Under the pieces are notes generated by a model. That model saw nothing but the letters and a program-made list of their open reading frames with translations. It ran no database searches and was not told the origin of the DNA. From Bacteroidota bacterium (GTDB lineage: Bacteria; Bacteroidota; Bacteroidia; Chitinophagales; Chitinophagaceae): DNA of 64,000 bases. The stretch is from the NCBI GenBank assembly GCA_018267575.1, contig JAFDYF010000005.1:1-64000 (forward strand). The letters run 5' to 3'. Of the stretch, positions 4,940 through 52,036 are shown piece after piece. The stretch's first letter is position 1. Each line of letters begins with the position of its first letter. The position numbers and the translations under genes were made by a program.

Positions 4940-5066
4940 TATGCTAAACGCTCGATGCGGAACGCTGAACGCAAAACGGTTAAAATCCTTTAGCTTTTAT
5001 TGTTGTGTGTTCCACAACATGCTTTCAGTGTTCTGCTTTACGCGTTAAGCGTTTCCCTTTCAGCGC
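4940..5066. repeat. AACGCTGAACGC-type dispersed hairpin repeat, copy 1
   Basis: The gap between the flavoprotein and map holds words of the type TAAACGC, GAACGCTGAACGC and, in inverted orientation, GCGTTAAGCGTTT and TTCAGCGC. The two halves can pair. The same words recur at about 11665-11760 and 20797-20818, so this is a dispersed intergenic element. Its right half runs into map and encodes the last ten residues of that protein. Confidence 0.6.
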
Positions 5067-11659: not shown

Positions 11660-11762
11660 TTTAGAGCGCTTAAAGTTTTACGCTTAACGCGTGACGATGA
11701 ACGCTTTTAATCTATTTTGCTTCGCACTTCCGCATCCCGCATTCAGCGTTCAGCATTAAGCC
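11660..11762. repeat. AACGCTGAACGC-type dispersed hairpin repeat, copy 2
   Basis: The rplN-rplX gap holds GCGCTTAAAG, TTACGCTTAACGCG and GATGAACGC on the left and GCATTCAGCGTTCAGCATTAAGC on the right, which is largely the inverted counterpart. Same family as 4940-5066 and 20797-20818. It would form a hairpin in the ribosomal mRNA. Confidence 0.6.
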
Positions 11763-16884: not shown

Positions 16885-17502
16885 TTATTTCTGGATGTAA
16901 ACAATTGAACCAATATGGCCTGGGATAGAACCACTGATCAGTATATAATTTTTTTCTGGGAAAATTTTCACCACTTTAAGGCTTTTGATTTTCACACGGT
17001 CGCAGCCCATACGGCCGGCCATGCGAACACCTTTCATTACACGAGATGCATCGGAAGAGTTACCCAATGAACCTGGGGCACGTTGACGATCGTGCTGACC
17101 GTGAGACTGTTGACCTACCCCATGGAAACCATGGCGTTTTACAACACCCTGAAAGCCCTTACCCTTGGTAGTACCCACCACATTCACTTTTTCGCCTTCG
17201 GCAAAAATGTCAACAGTGATAGACTCACCTAAATTCTTTTCTATGGAAAAATCACGGAATTCTCTAACGTGCTTTTTGGGAGCGGTGGATGATTTTGCGA
17301 AGTGGTTTTTTTCGGCAGCGATGGAATGCTTTTCTGTTTTATCGCCGAAACCTAATTGAAGTGAACTGTAACCGTCTGTTTCTTTTGTCTTCACCTGTGT
17401 AACTACGCAGGGACCTGCTTCAATAATGGTGCAGGCAGTTTGTTTACCGTCGGCGCTGAAGATGCTGGTCATCCCGATTTTTTTACCAATAATACCTTTC
17501 AT
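16885..17502 (-). CDS. rplC: 50S ribosomal protein L3
   Basis: 205 aa. [19 protein letters not shown] start and the loop [20 protein letters not shown] (about 119-138) with the Gln that is methylated in many bacteria. One of the first proteins in large-subunit assembly. A 273-base gap separates it from rpsJ, unusually long for this pair. Confidence 0.97.
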
Positions 17503-17775
17503 TTTTTACATTTTGCGCCTTGGGTATAGGGACAATCATGTACTCTTGTTTGGTAACAGATGGTCATGATTTCAATCCCCCGTTTGCTACTGACCTTTTC
17601 CTTTGTTTCAGAAGTACCAGTAGTAAACAAACCCGGAACGGCTTGTTTATATGTTCACCAACTTCATTGGAAGTTGTTATTGTTTACTATTTTTTATCCA
17701 GCGCTGCTTTATCGGGGGTTCAGTCCCGGGTTTGCAGATAGATATTGAAAGAACTTTTTAAAGGATGCCTCTCGG
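17503..17775 (-). promoter_or_regulatory. Structured leader between rpsJ and rplC
   Basis: This 273-base gap has no ORF. It contains consecutive inverted repeats: ATCATG/CATGAT (17535-17540, 17565-17570), CTACTG/CAGTAG (17587-17592, 17618-17623), TAAACAA/TTGTTTA (17624-17630, 17643-17649), CAACTTC/GAAGTTG with a 4-base loop (17659-17665, 17670-17676) and a G/C-rich one near 17713-17729. The run of hairpins ahead of rplC suggests an r-protein leader RNA. That role is inference. Confidence 0.45.
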
Positions 17776-18081
17776 TTATGCCTTTATCTCTACATCCACG
17801 CCAGATGGCAGATCCAATTTTGACAGAGCATCCACCGTTCTTGAAGAAGAGGTGTAGATGTCCAGCAAACGCTTATGCGTATGCAGTTGGAATTGCTCAC
17901 GAGCTTTTTTGTTTACGTGCGGGGAGCGAAGAACGGTGAAAATTTTCTTCTTAGTAGGTAAAGGAATAGGTCCTGTAACTACTGCACCGGTGCTGCGCAC
18001 GGTTTTTACGATTTTCTCGGCAGATTTATCTACCAGATTGTGATCGTATGACTGTAATTTGATCCTGATTCTTTGAGACAT
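17776..18081 (-). CDS. rpsJ: 30S ribosomal protein S10
   Basis: 101 aa, first gene of the S10-spc run. [20 protein letters not shown] at the start and [20 protein letters not shown] are signatures. Also known as NusE, which takes part in transcription antitermination. A well-formed promoter (18111-18142) lies 30 bases upstream, and GC-rich tandem repeats lie beyond that. Confidence 0.97.
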
Positions 18082-18110
18082 AAGCCAAGCCCATTTTTAG
18101 AATGGGAGTG

Positions 18111-18142
18111 CAAAGGTATGGGCTATGAAGCAAATAGACAAA
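18111..18142 (-). promoter_or_regulatory. rpsJ promoter (TTTG-N20-TACCTTTG)
   Basis: Read leftwards: TTTG (complement of 18139-18142), 20 bases, then TACCTTTG (complement of 18111-18118). This matches the Bacteroidota primary sigma consensus TTTG-N19-21-TAnnTTTG. Expected start of transcription is near 18105, giving a leader of about 25 bases before rpsJ. Confidence 0.8.
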
Positions 18143-18182
18143 GAAATTTGCTGTTTTTTATAAAAAAAGCACAGAAACTTAT

Positions 18183-18456
18183 CGATGGCGGATGGGCGAT
18201 GGTAGCTGGCCGGCTTTAGTGCGCATTTCGTTCAGAAAGGCGGCCGTCGGTGAACGGCTAACGGCCATCGATGACCGATAGGAGATGGCGGTTGGCCGCC
18301 TTAGTTGGGGCTTCGTTCAGAAAGGCAGCCTTCGGTGAACGGCTAACGGCCATCGATGACCGTTGTGCGAAAGCAGATGGCCGACACTGGTCGGGGCTTC
18401 GTTCCAAAAGGCGGCCTTCGGCCTACGACCGTCGGCGAACGACCATCGGCCATCCT
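18183..18456. repeat. Three GC-rich ~85-bp tandem repeats
   Basis: A block much richer in G and C than its surroundings. The anchor TTCGTTC occurs at 18227, 18312 and 18398, a period of 85-86 bp, followed each time by a form of CGGTGAACGGCTAACGGCC. Copies 1 and 2 also share CCATCGATGACCG; copy 3 is more diverged. Each unit contains inverted CGGCC/GGCCG words. The block starts 41 bases upstream of the rpsJ -33 box and ends three bases from the S9 peptidase stop. Confidence 0.8.
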
Positions 18457-18458
18457 TC

Positions 18459-20663
18459 CTACCTCGCCCCCGGAGCGCAATGCTCTTTTAAATAGTTAGT
18501 ATACAGGGTTGACAAATGCTCAGTCGTGCCCGGACCTTCGGAAATGCTATGTGTACGGTTGGGGTAGGACATAAACTGGAATTGCCGGTTGTATTTCACC
18601 AACTCATTAATCAGCATTTCTGCATTATCATAATGCACATTATCGTCGCCTGTGCCATGGATATACAATAGGTTTCCCTGAAGATTCTTGGCATGGGTAA
18701 TTGGTGACCCGTTCACAAAATCCTCCCTGTTTTCCTGCGGAAGCCCCATATAGCGTTCTTGGTAAATATTGTCGTAAGTCAGTTCATTGCCTACAGCCGC
18801 AATGGAAATCCCGGTTTTATAAATTTCTGGGTATTGGAACATCAGGTTCAAAGTAGCCGAGCCGCCACCACTCCAGCCCCATACCGCTATGCGGGAGCTA
18901 TCCACAAAAGGCCATTTCAAAATTTCTTTCGCTGCCATGGCCTGGTCGCGAATATTGAGGCGACCGATTTTTCTATAAATCGATTTTCTCCAGGTACTTC
19001 CTTTGGGCGCAGGTGTGCCACGGTTGTCAACAGAAATATAGATATAACCATCGGCTGCCATGCTGCCTTTGTACTCATCATTATCGGCAATCCCATAAAC
19101 ATCGCGTACTGTCTGGCTAGCTGGCTCCGAATAAACATAAAATACCACTGGATATTTTTTAGTACTATCGAAATGATCGGGTCTCGCCATCCAGGCATCC
19201 ATCTCAACCCCATCCTCTGTTTTTATTTTGAAGAAACGGATATTCGATTTGGTAGAATCGGCTGCTTGCACCGCCTCATAAACATGATGCCCATTCAATG
19301 CCGAATGATCGGGCAATGAAACCCACTCCCCTACTGGTGGCGTGTAATAGTTCGAAAAACTATGCCATGATAGTTTTGCATTGGGAGAAATCACATATTC
19401 ATGAGTGCCCCGCTGGTTTGTGGGTGACAACAATTCCAACTTACCCTTACCACTAAGTTTCGTGCGGTAGAGATATTTTTGAGTCGCATTGTCCGGCGAT
19501 GCTAGAAAATATACATAGCCTTCTTTTTCATCAATACATTTGATATCAATCACATCGTAATTACCGGCAGTTACCAAAGTTTCCTTTTTCCCATCATGAC
19601 TTATACGGTATAGATGCAGCCAGCCATCTTTTTCGCTGGGCCATAAAAATTCTTTCCCGTTATCTAGCCAGTCCCACCCTCCCATTTTATAATTATCAAA
19701 CCAACGGGAAGCGATATCAATCCAAGCTGCATCTTTTTCGGTATAGATTGTTTTTGAAGATCCATTAATCACATTGCAAAGCATGAGATCACTTTGGTTT
19801 TGCTTACGGTTCAGATGCTGTATAATCAGTTCATCATTATTGGCTGCCCATTCCATACGGGGCACATAAGAACCCCATACTGCATCTGTCGGGATTTTCA
19901 TCCATTTGGTTTCGGAATTAGCAATATCCACCACGCCAATCTTATAAGGGGATGGGGCTTGTCCAGCAACCGGGTACTCTACTGGTACAATATGCGAATA
20001 CACGGAATCTGTGGTATTGAGCATCAAATAATCTCTGGTATTTTTTGCATCAATCTGCCAATAAGCAATCATTTGGCTGTTTGGGCTCCAGCGGAAACCA
20101 TCACGACAATCAAACTCTTCTTCATATACCCAATCGAATGTGCCATTGATCAGCTTTCTGGTGCCGTCGAAAGTCAGTTGCTTTATTTCGTGGGTAGCCA
20201 AATCTTCTACATATACATTATGCTCACTCACATAAGCTGCTTTTTTTGTGTCGGGTGAAAATTTTGCAAACATCAATGAAGAGGGGGGCAAGGATTTCCC
20301 TAACTGAAATAAATTGCCCGAAGGCAGATCGTAGACCCAATAATCGCCTCGGGTATGGTAACGCCATACTTTTTTAGTGTTAGTGAATATAAGGATCTGC
20401 TGACCATCATTGGAGAATTTCAATGATCTGATGTCAAGCGGCCGACCCTGACCCGCCGGCACCAATTTATCGTTAGGTACAAGGAGGGTTTTATTATGTT
20501 CCTTTACATAATATTGCAAAATCCCATCTTTACTGGCAGTATAAAAAGAGTTTCCATCCTTGCTCCACTCCAACCTATCACCAAACTGGGCAAAACCAAT
20601 TATTGAAAAATGAATGAATATGACCGTGAAAAAAAAGAACAAGCGCTTATTGCTGAGGGGCAT
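18459..20663 (-). CDS. Secreted dipeptidyl-peptidase IV family protein (S9)
   Basis: 734 aa from the chosen ATG. The chosen start (20663) gives a clean signal peptide (MPLSNKRLFFFFTVIFIHF, cleaved about after GFAQ); the frame is open further upstream without a signal peptide. The N-terminal beta-propeller (about 80-470) is of the DPPIV_N type. The C-terminal alpha/beta hydrolase has GWSGGG with Ser598, GTGDDNVH with Asp673/Asp674 and His705 (RTHSISEG). It likely cuts dipeptides from peptides in the periplasm or outside. It lies between fusA and rpsJ, where tuf stands in many bacteria, and has no link to translation. Confidence 0.92.
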   Translation of the reverse strand: MPLSNKRLFFFFTVIFIHFSIIGFAQFGDRLEWSKDGNSFYTASKDGILQYYVKEHNKTLLVPNDKLVPAGQGRPLDIRSLKFSNDGQQILIFTNTKKVWRYHTRGDYWVYDLPSGNLFQLGKSLPPSSLMFAKFSPDTKKAAYVSEHNVYVEDLATHEIKQLTFDGTRKLINGTFDWVYEEEFDCRDGFRWSPNSQMIAYWQIDAKNTRDYLMLNTTDSVYSHIVPVEYPVAGQAPSPYKIGVVDIANSETKWMKIPTDAVWGSYVPRMEWAANNDELIIQHLNRKQNQSDLMLCNVINGSSKTIYTEKDAAWIDIASRWFDNYKMGGWDWLDNGKEFLWPSEKDGWLHLYRISHDGKKETLVTAGNYDVIDIKCIDEKEGYVYFLASPDNATQKYLYRTKLSGKGKLELLSPTNQRGTHEYVISPNAKLSWHSFSNYYTPPVGEWVSLPDHSALNGHHVYEAVQAADSTKSNIRFFKIKTEDGVEMDAWMARPDHFDSTKKYPVVFYVYSEPASQTVRDVYGIADNDEYKGSMAADGYIYISVDNRGTPAPKGSTWRKSIYRKIGRLNIRDQAMAAKEILKWPFVDSSRIAVWGWSGGGSATLNLMFQYPEIYKTGISIAAVGNELTYDNIYQERYMGLPQENREDFVNGSPITHAKNLQGNLLYIHGTGDDNVHYDNAEMLINELVKYNRQFQFMSYPNRTHSISEGPGTTEHLSTLYTNYLKEHCAPGAR

Positions 20664-21047
20664 AAAATAAATTTTGGGGAAATTAAGGCATTCGGTACAA
20701 AAGGATTTCAACGAGACAAAAAATAAACGAATTTTTAGAGTTTGGTAAGCGATTTTTAGTTTCACACAAGGGCGCAAAGAATTCAACGAGACAAAGCTTA
20801 ACGCTAAATGCTTAACGCAAAACCCAAGTCTCTAATACGTCAACAATTCAAAAGCACGCCCCAATTCCTAATTCCCAATTCCTTCAAACCACTAACAGTG
20901 CCTCTGCGTGAAATTAATATTGAACCACAGTGGCACAAAGGCACATAAGGAACGCTTTGCTATCTAATATTCTCTGTGCCTCACCTCTGTCCCCTCTGTG
21001 GTAAAAGCCTTAAACCCTCTACCCTAAACCTTTTTTCCCTAAAACAA
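20664..21047. repeat. Repeat-rich gap between the S9 peptidase and fusA terminator
   Basis: No gene seen. TTCAACGAGACAAA occurs twice (20707, 20782). 20797-20818 is copy 3 of the AACGC family (GCTTAACGC twice). 20924-21002 holds a long hairpin of the dispersed ACCACAG...CTGTGGT type: ACCACAG (20924-20930) with CTGTGGT (20996-21002), and AGGCACA (20939-20945) with TGTGCCT (20975-20981). Confidence 0.6.
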
Positions 21048-51371: not shown

Positions 51372-51378
51372 GGGGAAA

Positions 51379-51450
51379 GTCGGGAAGACGGAAAGTCAGA
51401 AAGTCAGAAAGTCCAGAAGTCGGGAAGACCGGAAGTCGGAAAGATGGAAG
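51379..51450 (+). repeat. Array of nine 8-bp units (GTCNGAAA type)
   Basis: Nine contiguous 8-mers: GTCGGGAA, GACGGAAA, GTCAGAAA (twice), GTCCAGAA, GTCGGGAA, GACCGGAA, GTCGGAAA, GATGGAAG. No base is inserted between units. The arrays downstream of the four-helix-bundle gene are in inverted orientation. The array lies between the aguB stop and the four-helix-bundle gene, 45 bases upstream of its ATG. Confidence 0.9.
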
Positions 51451-51495: not shown

Positions 51496-51864
51496 ATGCC
51501 ATTTAAATTTGAGAAATTAATAGTATGGCAGAAAGCGGTGGGCCTTTCTGATCTTGTAAATCATCTGACGAAAAATTTCCCCAAAGACGAATTGTATGTT
51601 TTGACCTCACAAATAAAAAGCGCAGCGGACTCTGTTTCTTTGAATATAGCAGAAGGTTCAACGGGACAATCAAATGCGGAATTCGCAAGATTTTTAAGCA
51701 TTGCAACTAGATCGGATATTGAAGTAGTGGGTTGTATCCACTTGGCAAAGCGGAGAGGATATATTCAAGAGGATAATTTTAATACAATTTATAAAATGTG
51801 TGAAGAAATTTTAGTTATGCTAAACTCATTGAAAAATTCCTTGACGAATAAACAAAAAGCCTAA
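51496..51864 (+). CDS. Four-helix-bundle protein (S23 / 23S rRNA IVS type)
   Basis: 122 aa from ATG 51496 (MPFKFEKLIVWQKAVGLSDL); the frame is open upstream through the repeat array but that part is not family-like. Family blocks: KLIVWQKAV (about 6-14), FPKDELYVLTSQIKSAADSV (about 28-47), NIAEGSTGQSNAEFARFLSI and a C-terminal helix. This matches PF05635/TIGR02436, named from proteins encoded in 23S rRNA intervening sequences and related to the Avd protein of diversity-generating retroelements. No rRNA or reverse transcriptase is near. It splits aguB from aguA and is flanked by inverted 8-bp arrays. Confidence 0.93.
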   Translation: MPFKFEKLIVWQKAVGLSDLVNHLTKNFPKDELYVLTSQIKSAADSVSLNIAEGSTGQSNAEFARFLSIATRSDIEVVGCIHLAKRRGYIQEDNFNTIYKMCEEILVMLNSLKNSLTNKQKA

Positions 51865-52036
51865 GCATTAAAAATACAAAGGGCTTTCCGATTCCCCGTC
51901 TTTCGGACATCCCGACTCCACATTAGTAAAACCAAACTCATTGAAAACTCCTTGACCAATAAACAATAATTATGAGCAATATAAATACAAACAAGTCTTC
52001 TGACTTTCCGACTTCCGGACTTTCGGACTTCCCGAC
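51811..52036. repeat. 112-bp tandem duplication ending in 8-bp arrays
   Basis: Copy 1 (51811 to about 51918) has the last 18 codons of the four-helix-bundle gene, a short spacer and four units (TTTCCGAT, TCCCCGTC, TTTCGGAC, ATCCCGAC). Copy 2 (51923-52036) repeats this in the same direction, with AAACTCATTGAAAA at both 51822 and 51934, and five units (CTTCTGAC, TTTCCGAC, TTCCGGAC, TTTCGGAC, TTCCCGAC at 51997-52036). Copy 2 runs into aguA. Confidence 0.85.

Follow-up and report, generated by a model that had tools for sequence, protein, structure and literature searches.

The window analysed here is a stretch of 64,000 nucleotides from a Chitinophagaceae genome (contig JAFDYF010000005.1). In it, the genes for ribosomal protein S10 (rpsJ) and an S9 peptidase are separated by a 377 bp spacer that holds a GC-rich block of repeats (Table 1). 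The initial annotation had described three tandem units of 85–86 bp upstream of the rpsJ promoter, and the repeat was recovered. TRF run on the window gave a period of 85 with 2.3 copies and 83% matches at 18227–18421, and repeat finding placed a 53-nt core three times inside the block, with starts at 18219, 18304, and 18390 and spacings of 85 and 86, respectively. The unusual base composition was also confirmed, as 18200–18499 showed 58–61% GC versus 37–48% in the neighbouring 100-bp windows. The block lay upstream of the rpsJ promoter motif and did not overlap it, a motif that we take to be a Bacteroidota −33/−7 promoter.

Table 1. Features of the rpsJ–S9 locus and of the PF05635 element in the window.
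Feature	Position	Strand	Basis
rpsJ (ribosomal protein S10)	17776..18081	-	–
rpsJ promoter motif TTTG-20-TACCTTTG, outside the block, conserved in relatives	18111..18142	-	reading of same-genus rpsJ loci
Whole inserted block, three tandem hairpin units of degenerate CGGCCAT heptamers	18183..18458	.	repeat finding and comparison with relatives
Unit 1, 5' arm, G-rich	18183..18212	- (heptamers read on minus strand)	heptamer pattern search
Unit 1, 3' arm, C-rich	18241..18279	+	heptamer search, Viterbi arm limits, autocorrelation
Unit 2, 5' arm, G-rich	18283..18298	-	heptamer pattern search
Unit 2, 3' arm, C-rich	18326..18364	+	heptamer search, autocorrelation
Unit 3, 5' arm, G-rich	18368..18384	-	heptamer search, Viterbi arm limits
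Unit 3, 3' arm, C-rich, runs to the S9 stop codon	18412..18458	+	heptamer search, Viterbi, autocorrelation
S9 / DPP IV-type peptidase gene	18459..20786	-	–
5' arm of the PF05635 element, GGAAAGTC words	51374..51443	+	repeat finding
PF05635 gene of the window, full element with a different vocabulary, between GGAAAGTC-word arrays	51496..51864	+	PF05635 family
Complementary 3' array of the PF05635 element, GACTTTCC words	52002..52036	+	repeat finding (a shorter one near 51884–51917)

Structure and origin of the block

A heptamer period was present beneath the 85-bp repeat. Averaged over the three C-rich arms, the autocorrelation at lag 7 was 0.60, compared with a mean of 0.26 and a maximum of 0.41 in 5000 shuffles. 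The heptamers were CGGCCAT with substitutions, such as CGGTGAA, CGGCTAA, CGGCCAT, and CGATGAC, and the 5' arm of each unit held the complement of this degenerate word. Minus-strand words were followed by a loop of about 25 nt and then by plus-strand words, and each unit formed an imperfect hairpin; the inverted GGCC/CGGC words originally noted in each unit could thereby be refined to the two arms of one hairpin. The words ran head-to-tail but degenerate within each arm, and their orientation alternated between arms. Compared with shuffles, folding of the block gave z values of −6.06 (RNA, transcribed strand) and −5.69 (DNA). A free Viterbi heptamer scan of the window was far too lax, and it was used only for arm limits and for spotting arrays, with no counts taken from it. 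The Rfam search of 17400–19200 returned nothing up to E 1.

Comparison with relatives showed that the block is an insertion: of the species compared, that of the window alone carried it. rpsJ was matched in 35 of the 39 genomes searched, and 20 same-genus loci, including our own, were read. The S9 peptidase adjoined rpsJ in 16 of the 19 other same-genus genomes, where the spacer measured 80–122 bp in ten, 142–167 bp in three, and 402–1187 bp in three, the values for L041 and L043 being slightly overstated as the S9 match stopped early. The spacer of most relatives was about 90 bp, and the three long ones held other sequence. CGGCCAT-array matches numbered 32 in the spacer here and 0 in all 16 relatives. 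No target-site duplication was seen by eye at the block. A tblastn search of the spacer with three PF05635 proteins gave no convincing remnant of that gene (best E 0.19).

Two further observations were made on the spacers of relatives. In G002 (L046) word arrays of another kind were visible by eye between the S9 peptidase and rpsJ, and in two relatives (L042 and L044) other coding sequence, whole or partial, lay between these two genes.

The word itself was dispersed. As a whole, the 274-bp block had a single match in the 4.96-Mb genome, namely itself, so the unit count called for by the initial annotation gave a single-copy block made of a widespread heptamer. At up to 3 mismatches, CGGCCATCGGCCATCG gave 95 matches genome-wide, compared with 15 for a reversed-pattern control. 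The CGGCCAT-word matches fell at 47 places, 19 of them with two or more matches, and in the clusters that were read, closely opposed arms had the minus-strand words first. For another CGGCCAT hairpin, the only end-to-end matches were to itself and to a copy (83%) lying about 320 bp off, and there was one partial match besides. The dispersed hairpins thus have words in common but not sequence, which is unlike ordinary transposition. The neighbours of the arrays were unrelated. Stop-to-stop frames no shorter than 700 nt ran across 12 of the 22 CGGCCAT array regions that were checked, so arrays occur outside gaps too, and chance matches in coding sequence may account for some of the hits. In relatives, versions of the word were found as CGGCCAACGGCCAAC in G016 and as CGGTCATCGGTCATC in G005 and G018, while many others stayed near the control level.

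Other repeats were seen around these arrays. At L072, CGGCCAT arrays twice passed directly into arrays of the CCCAATTCC type, as though the vocabularies travel together. A second dispersed palindrome, AACTTTTCCAAAGTTTGAAACTTTGGAAAAGT, lay next to CGGCCAT arrays at L073 and L077. One-directional heptamer arrays at L078, L082, and L141 were seemingly inside protein-coding linkers.

Mirrored arrays around PF05635 genes

The CGGCCAT word also framed a protein-coding gene. At C13:147312, a gene of the family PF05635 had ATGGCCG words before it and CGGCCAT words after it, although the self-complementarity score of this element was only 18, a value reached by 7% of mismatched pairs. PF05635 is the 23S-rRNA-IVP/S23p family, an Avd-like four-helix bundle. 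Relatives with solved structures were 2gsc and 2rld, and NCBIfam Avd matches in two of four PF05635 proteins were weak and below the cut-off. By eye, all six PF05635 genes of the genome had mirrored word arrays, with vocabularies that differed between them; one of the six lies in the window (Table 1). Some of these flank vocabularies recurred as ORF-less arrays within the window. The cognate protein that the initial annotation proposed to look for thus has a candidate in this associated family, none of whose genes lies at the rpsJ locus.

Other word arrays in the window can be listed here. Two mirrored arrays of AACGCTTA/AACGCTGA words lay at 4943–5064 and 11665–11762, in gaps near ribosomal operons, and the same kind of word bracketed the PF05635 gene at C13:129966. 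The fusA–S9 spacer (20779–21002) held three array kinds, namely AACGCTTA words, CCAATTCC words, and a mirrored pair of CACAGTGGCACAAAGGCAC and CTGTGCCTC..CTCTGTGG.

The flanks of PF05635 genes were then scored by the local complementarity of 180-bp flanks, and a score of at least 18 was counted as self-complementary. Where a gene had in-frame stops, these were kept visible in its translation. Overall, 121 of 149 PF05635 genes from many phyla reached this score. Among the controls, 13 of 189 ORFs that neighbour them in the same loci did so, and 0 of 57 genes of the window. In the genus set, 43 rows gave 42 elements from 10 of 23 genomes, as a single frameshifted gene had taken up two rows, which were combined; 34 of the 42 scored at least 18, with an own mean of 27.1 versus 12.3 for mismatched pairs (0/100000 permutations). 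PF05635 was found in 157 of the 198 Bacteroidota genomes sampled. The phylum set, limited to the 30 places that came with a locus out of many more listed by the search, had 21 loci at or above the threshold (own 20.0 versus cross 12.4; 0/100000 permutations). The broad set comprised 80 named loci, of which three were dropped (one long ORF, two short flanks), and 66 of the remaining 77 scored at least 18 (own 23.6 versus cross 11.8; 0/20000 permutations). By the labels of the records, its phyla included Bacteroidota, Planctomycetes, Cyanobacteria, Patescibacteria, Omnitrophota, and Fibrobacterota. Among the 121 self-complementary genes, the best arm period was 7 in 89 and 8 in 29, and the 5' arm had more G than C in 108, fewer G in 11, and equal numbers in 2.

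At L066, L097, L120, and L168, a PF05635 gene stood upstream of the same downstream gene in genomes from more than one family, which suggests an old or reused site.

Arms at the same site differed between species yet still matched each other. For 68 elements in 22 groups, each group sharing a similar gene downstream, the own score averaged 22.3 versus 17.0 for within-group crosses (0/20000 permutations). Groups L161/L163, L193/L219, and L202/L203/L242 were among those lacking an own-versus-cross difference, as expected of close relatives. The spacer between MoxR and DUF58 genes illustrates this turnover. Among 20 loci, with G010 left unassigned and the contig of G018 truncated, the spacer was 9–53 bp in 11 genomes, and PF05635 with arrays was present in 5. 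The words varied by species, with CGGCCAT here and types GGATGGT, GATGGTT, GTTGACG, and GTTGGCG elsewhere, each matched on the opposite side. In G022 the 87-bp spacer contained an ORF-less word hairpin. The spacer of G015 also held a hairpin, together with a faint match to the 3' end of a PF05635 gene (KQCQKILDGFISY, E 0.02–0.05); this trace is only suggestive of a possible gene remnant.

Interpretation and comparison with known systems

Taken together, the block is probably an ORF-less ("solo") relative of the PF05635 elements, which was inserted and amplified locally and is no switch for rpsJ. It shares with these elements the heptamer period and the G-rich 5' and C-rich 3' arms, and no PF05635 gene stands between its arms. 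It is therefore called a relative of the class and not a member, and as neither the gene nor a convincing remnant was found in the block, it is the common words and the hairpin form that speak for kinship. Among the four roles first suggested, an expanding selfish repeat fitted best, given that all 16 measurable relatives lack the insertion and that its heptamer is dispersed at 47 places. The block has the look of selfish DNA, of a class that has drawn little attention.

A stepwise origin can be proposed. A hairpin-forming heptamer array would have been inserted into the short spacer and then multiplied locally to three 85-bp units. Its inverted arms would fold as DNA or as RNA. An arm may grow when the polymerase slips by 7 nt at a time, and the words of one arm may be copied into the other by template switching across the hairpin, hence the vocabulary could drift while the arms stay complementary. 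Slippage combined with template switching across the hairpin is the mechanism that we infer to be best supported. As a candidate role, the PF05635 protein would bind the hairpin and help its spread or tolerance.

More tentatively, the PF05635 genes may form a bacteria-wide class of elements with the layout heptamer array, ORF, and reverse complement, in which both arms are rewritten together and the word is particular to each lineage. The Avd-like protein would help to make, spread, or protect the arrays, the rpsJ block and other solo arrays would be by-products, and the 23S rRNA intervening sequences would be copies that landed in rRNA. The literature searched, which covered few subscription journals and no preprints, gave no description of mirrored heptamer arrays around PF05635 genes outside rRNA. 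The class to which the block points is more interesting than the block itself. An oddity beside one gene has led to a testable rule, that PF05635, a widespread family of unassigned function, is usually framed by mirrored heptamer arrays. If true, the hairpin arms would also offer a natural example of concerted evolution.

The arrays could also come from slippage and template switching by themselves, without any role for the protein. Heptamer arrays would then arise and grow wherever they are tolerated, and PF05635 would merely sit among them. Heptanucleotides are described as the commonest long simple repeats, for which slippage has been proposed (PMC4679880), and template switching across a hairpin can create stems and mend both arms (PMC8794818). 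The dispersed hairpins have words in common and not their whole sequence, and arrays also occur inside open frames, as this passive account would have it. We nevertheless regard it as rather unlikely, since it gives no reason to favour one gene family in many phyla. The excess of mirrored arrays at PF05635 genes over neighbouring ORFs and window genes and the recurrence of the same word across one genome also stand against it.

A host site for regulation or transcript processing is improbable. Such hairpins would insulate rpsJ from S9 read-through, as an RNase III site, pause, or terminator, or would form an upstream activating array, and both the strong fold on the transcribed strand and the placing of the block, with the S9 stop on one side and the rpsJ promoter on the other, would suit this. 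However, the block was missing from all 16 comparable relatives, and the promoter motif (TTTG-N-TAnnTTTG) was kept at 20 of 20 same-genus rpsJ loci, block present or not, and the upstream activating sites suggested at first are not supported. Nor is an intrinsic terminator as the proposed transcription stop for the peptidase gene: a GC stem with a T run after it was found at 0 sites in 17700–18900, though an effect of the hairpins on S9 read-through is possible. The absence from relatives and the dispersal of the heptamer among unrelated neighbours point to an inserted array rather than a regulatory site, and rpsJ is a bystander for which a role of the block is not supported. The spread of the heptamer also comes near to what had been set beforehand as telling against a link to rpsJ, namely a unit common in many unrelated gaps.

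A REPIN- or MITE-like palindrome mobilised by a transposase such as RAYT is very improbable despite GC-rich inverted arms and three PF01797 genes in the genome, as other palindromes flank all three PF01797 loci, no conserved unit is common to different places, no homologous whole copy of the block exists elsewhere in the genome, and no target-site duplication was seen by eye. The three PF01797 (RAYT-type) genes lie at L257, L258, and L259 beside their own palindromes, and one has in-frame stops.

Among known systems, REPINs and BIMEs with RAYT transposases are short, dispersed, GC-rich palindromes, as is the block, but they differ from it in having a conserved unit and, in this genome, in the palindromes beside the PF01797 genes. 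PF05635 proteins resemble Avd of diversity-generating retroelements (PMC10053308), whereas the profile search found no PF00078 reverse transcriptase in this genome; the class, if true, would give a nucleic-acid context for the Avd-like fold outside retroelements. PF05635 genes also occur in cas loci (PMC3936711) and in rRNA insertions of CPR bacteria (PMC11270868), and the words "inverted", "heptamer", and "tandem repeat" were absent from the latter paper.

Heptamer direct-repeat arrays (TAACTGA, large simple sequence repeats (LSSR), STRR) share the 7-nt unit with the block, but the arms of the block are inverted and degenerate, with the word CGGCCAT. The cyanobacterial STRR are heptamer direct-repeat arrays. 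The TAACTGA arrays have 7-nt units and are mostly intergenic, dispersed, and variable between strains; heptamer arrays were nearly all direct repeats, and the list for the genome in question contained a single inverted repeat (PMC4679880).

The 23S rRNA intervening sequences are another close counterpart, and an inverted-repeat stem occurs in both. The central S23p/IVP ORF is not present in all of them. The block differs in that it is ORF-less and lies between the S9 peptidase and rpsJ genes and not in rRNA; an Rfam scan of 20 PF05635 loci from the broad set found rRNA in none, and the vocabulary varies between PF05635 elements. In the published description, the S23p/IVP ORF (PF05635) lies between inverted repeats, with RNase III excision in Coxiella, where tandem heptamers (GACAGAT) stand just before the ORF (PMC4990558). 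The elements described here would, if the class reading holds, supply a parent class for these intervening sequences.
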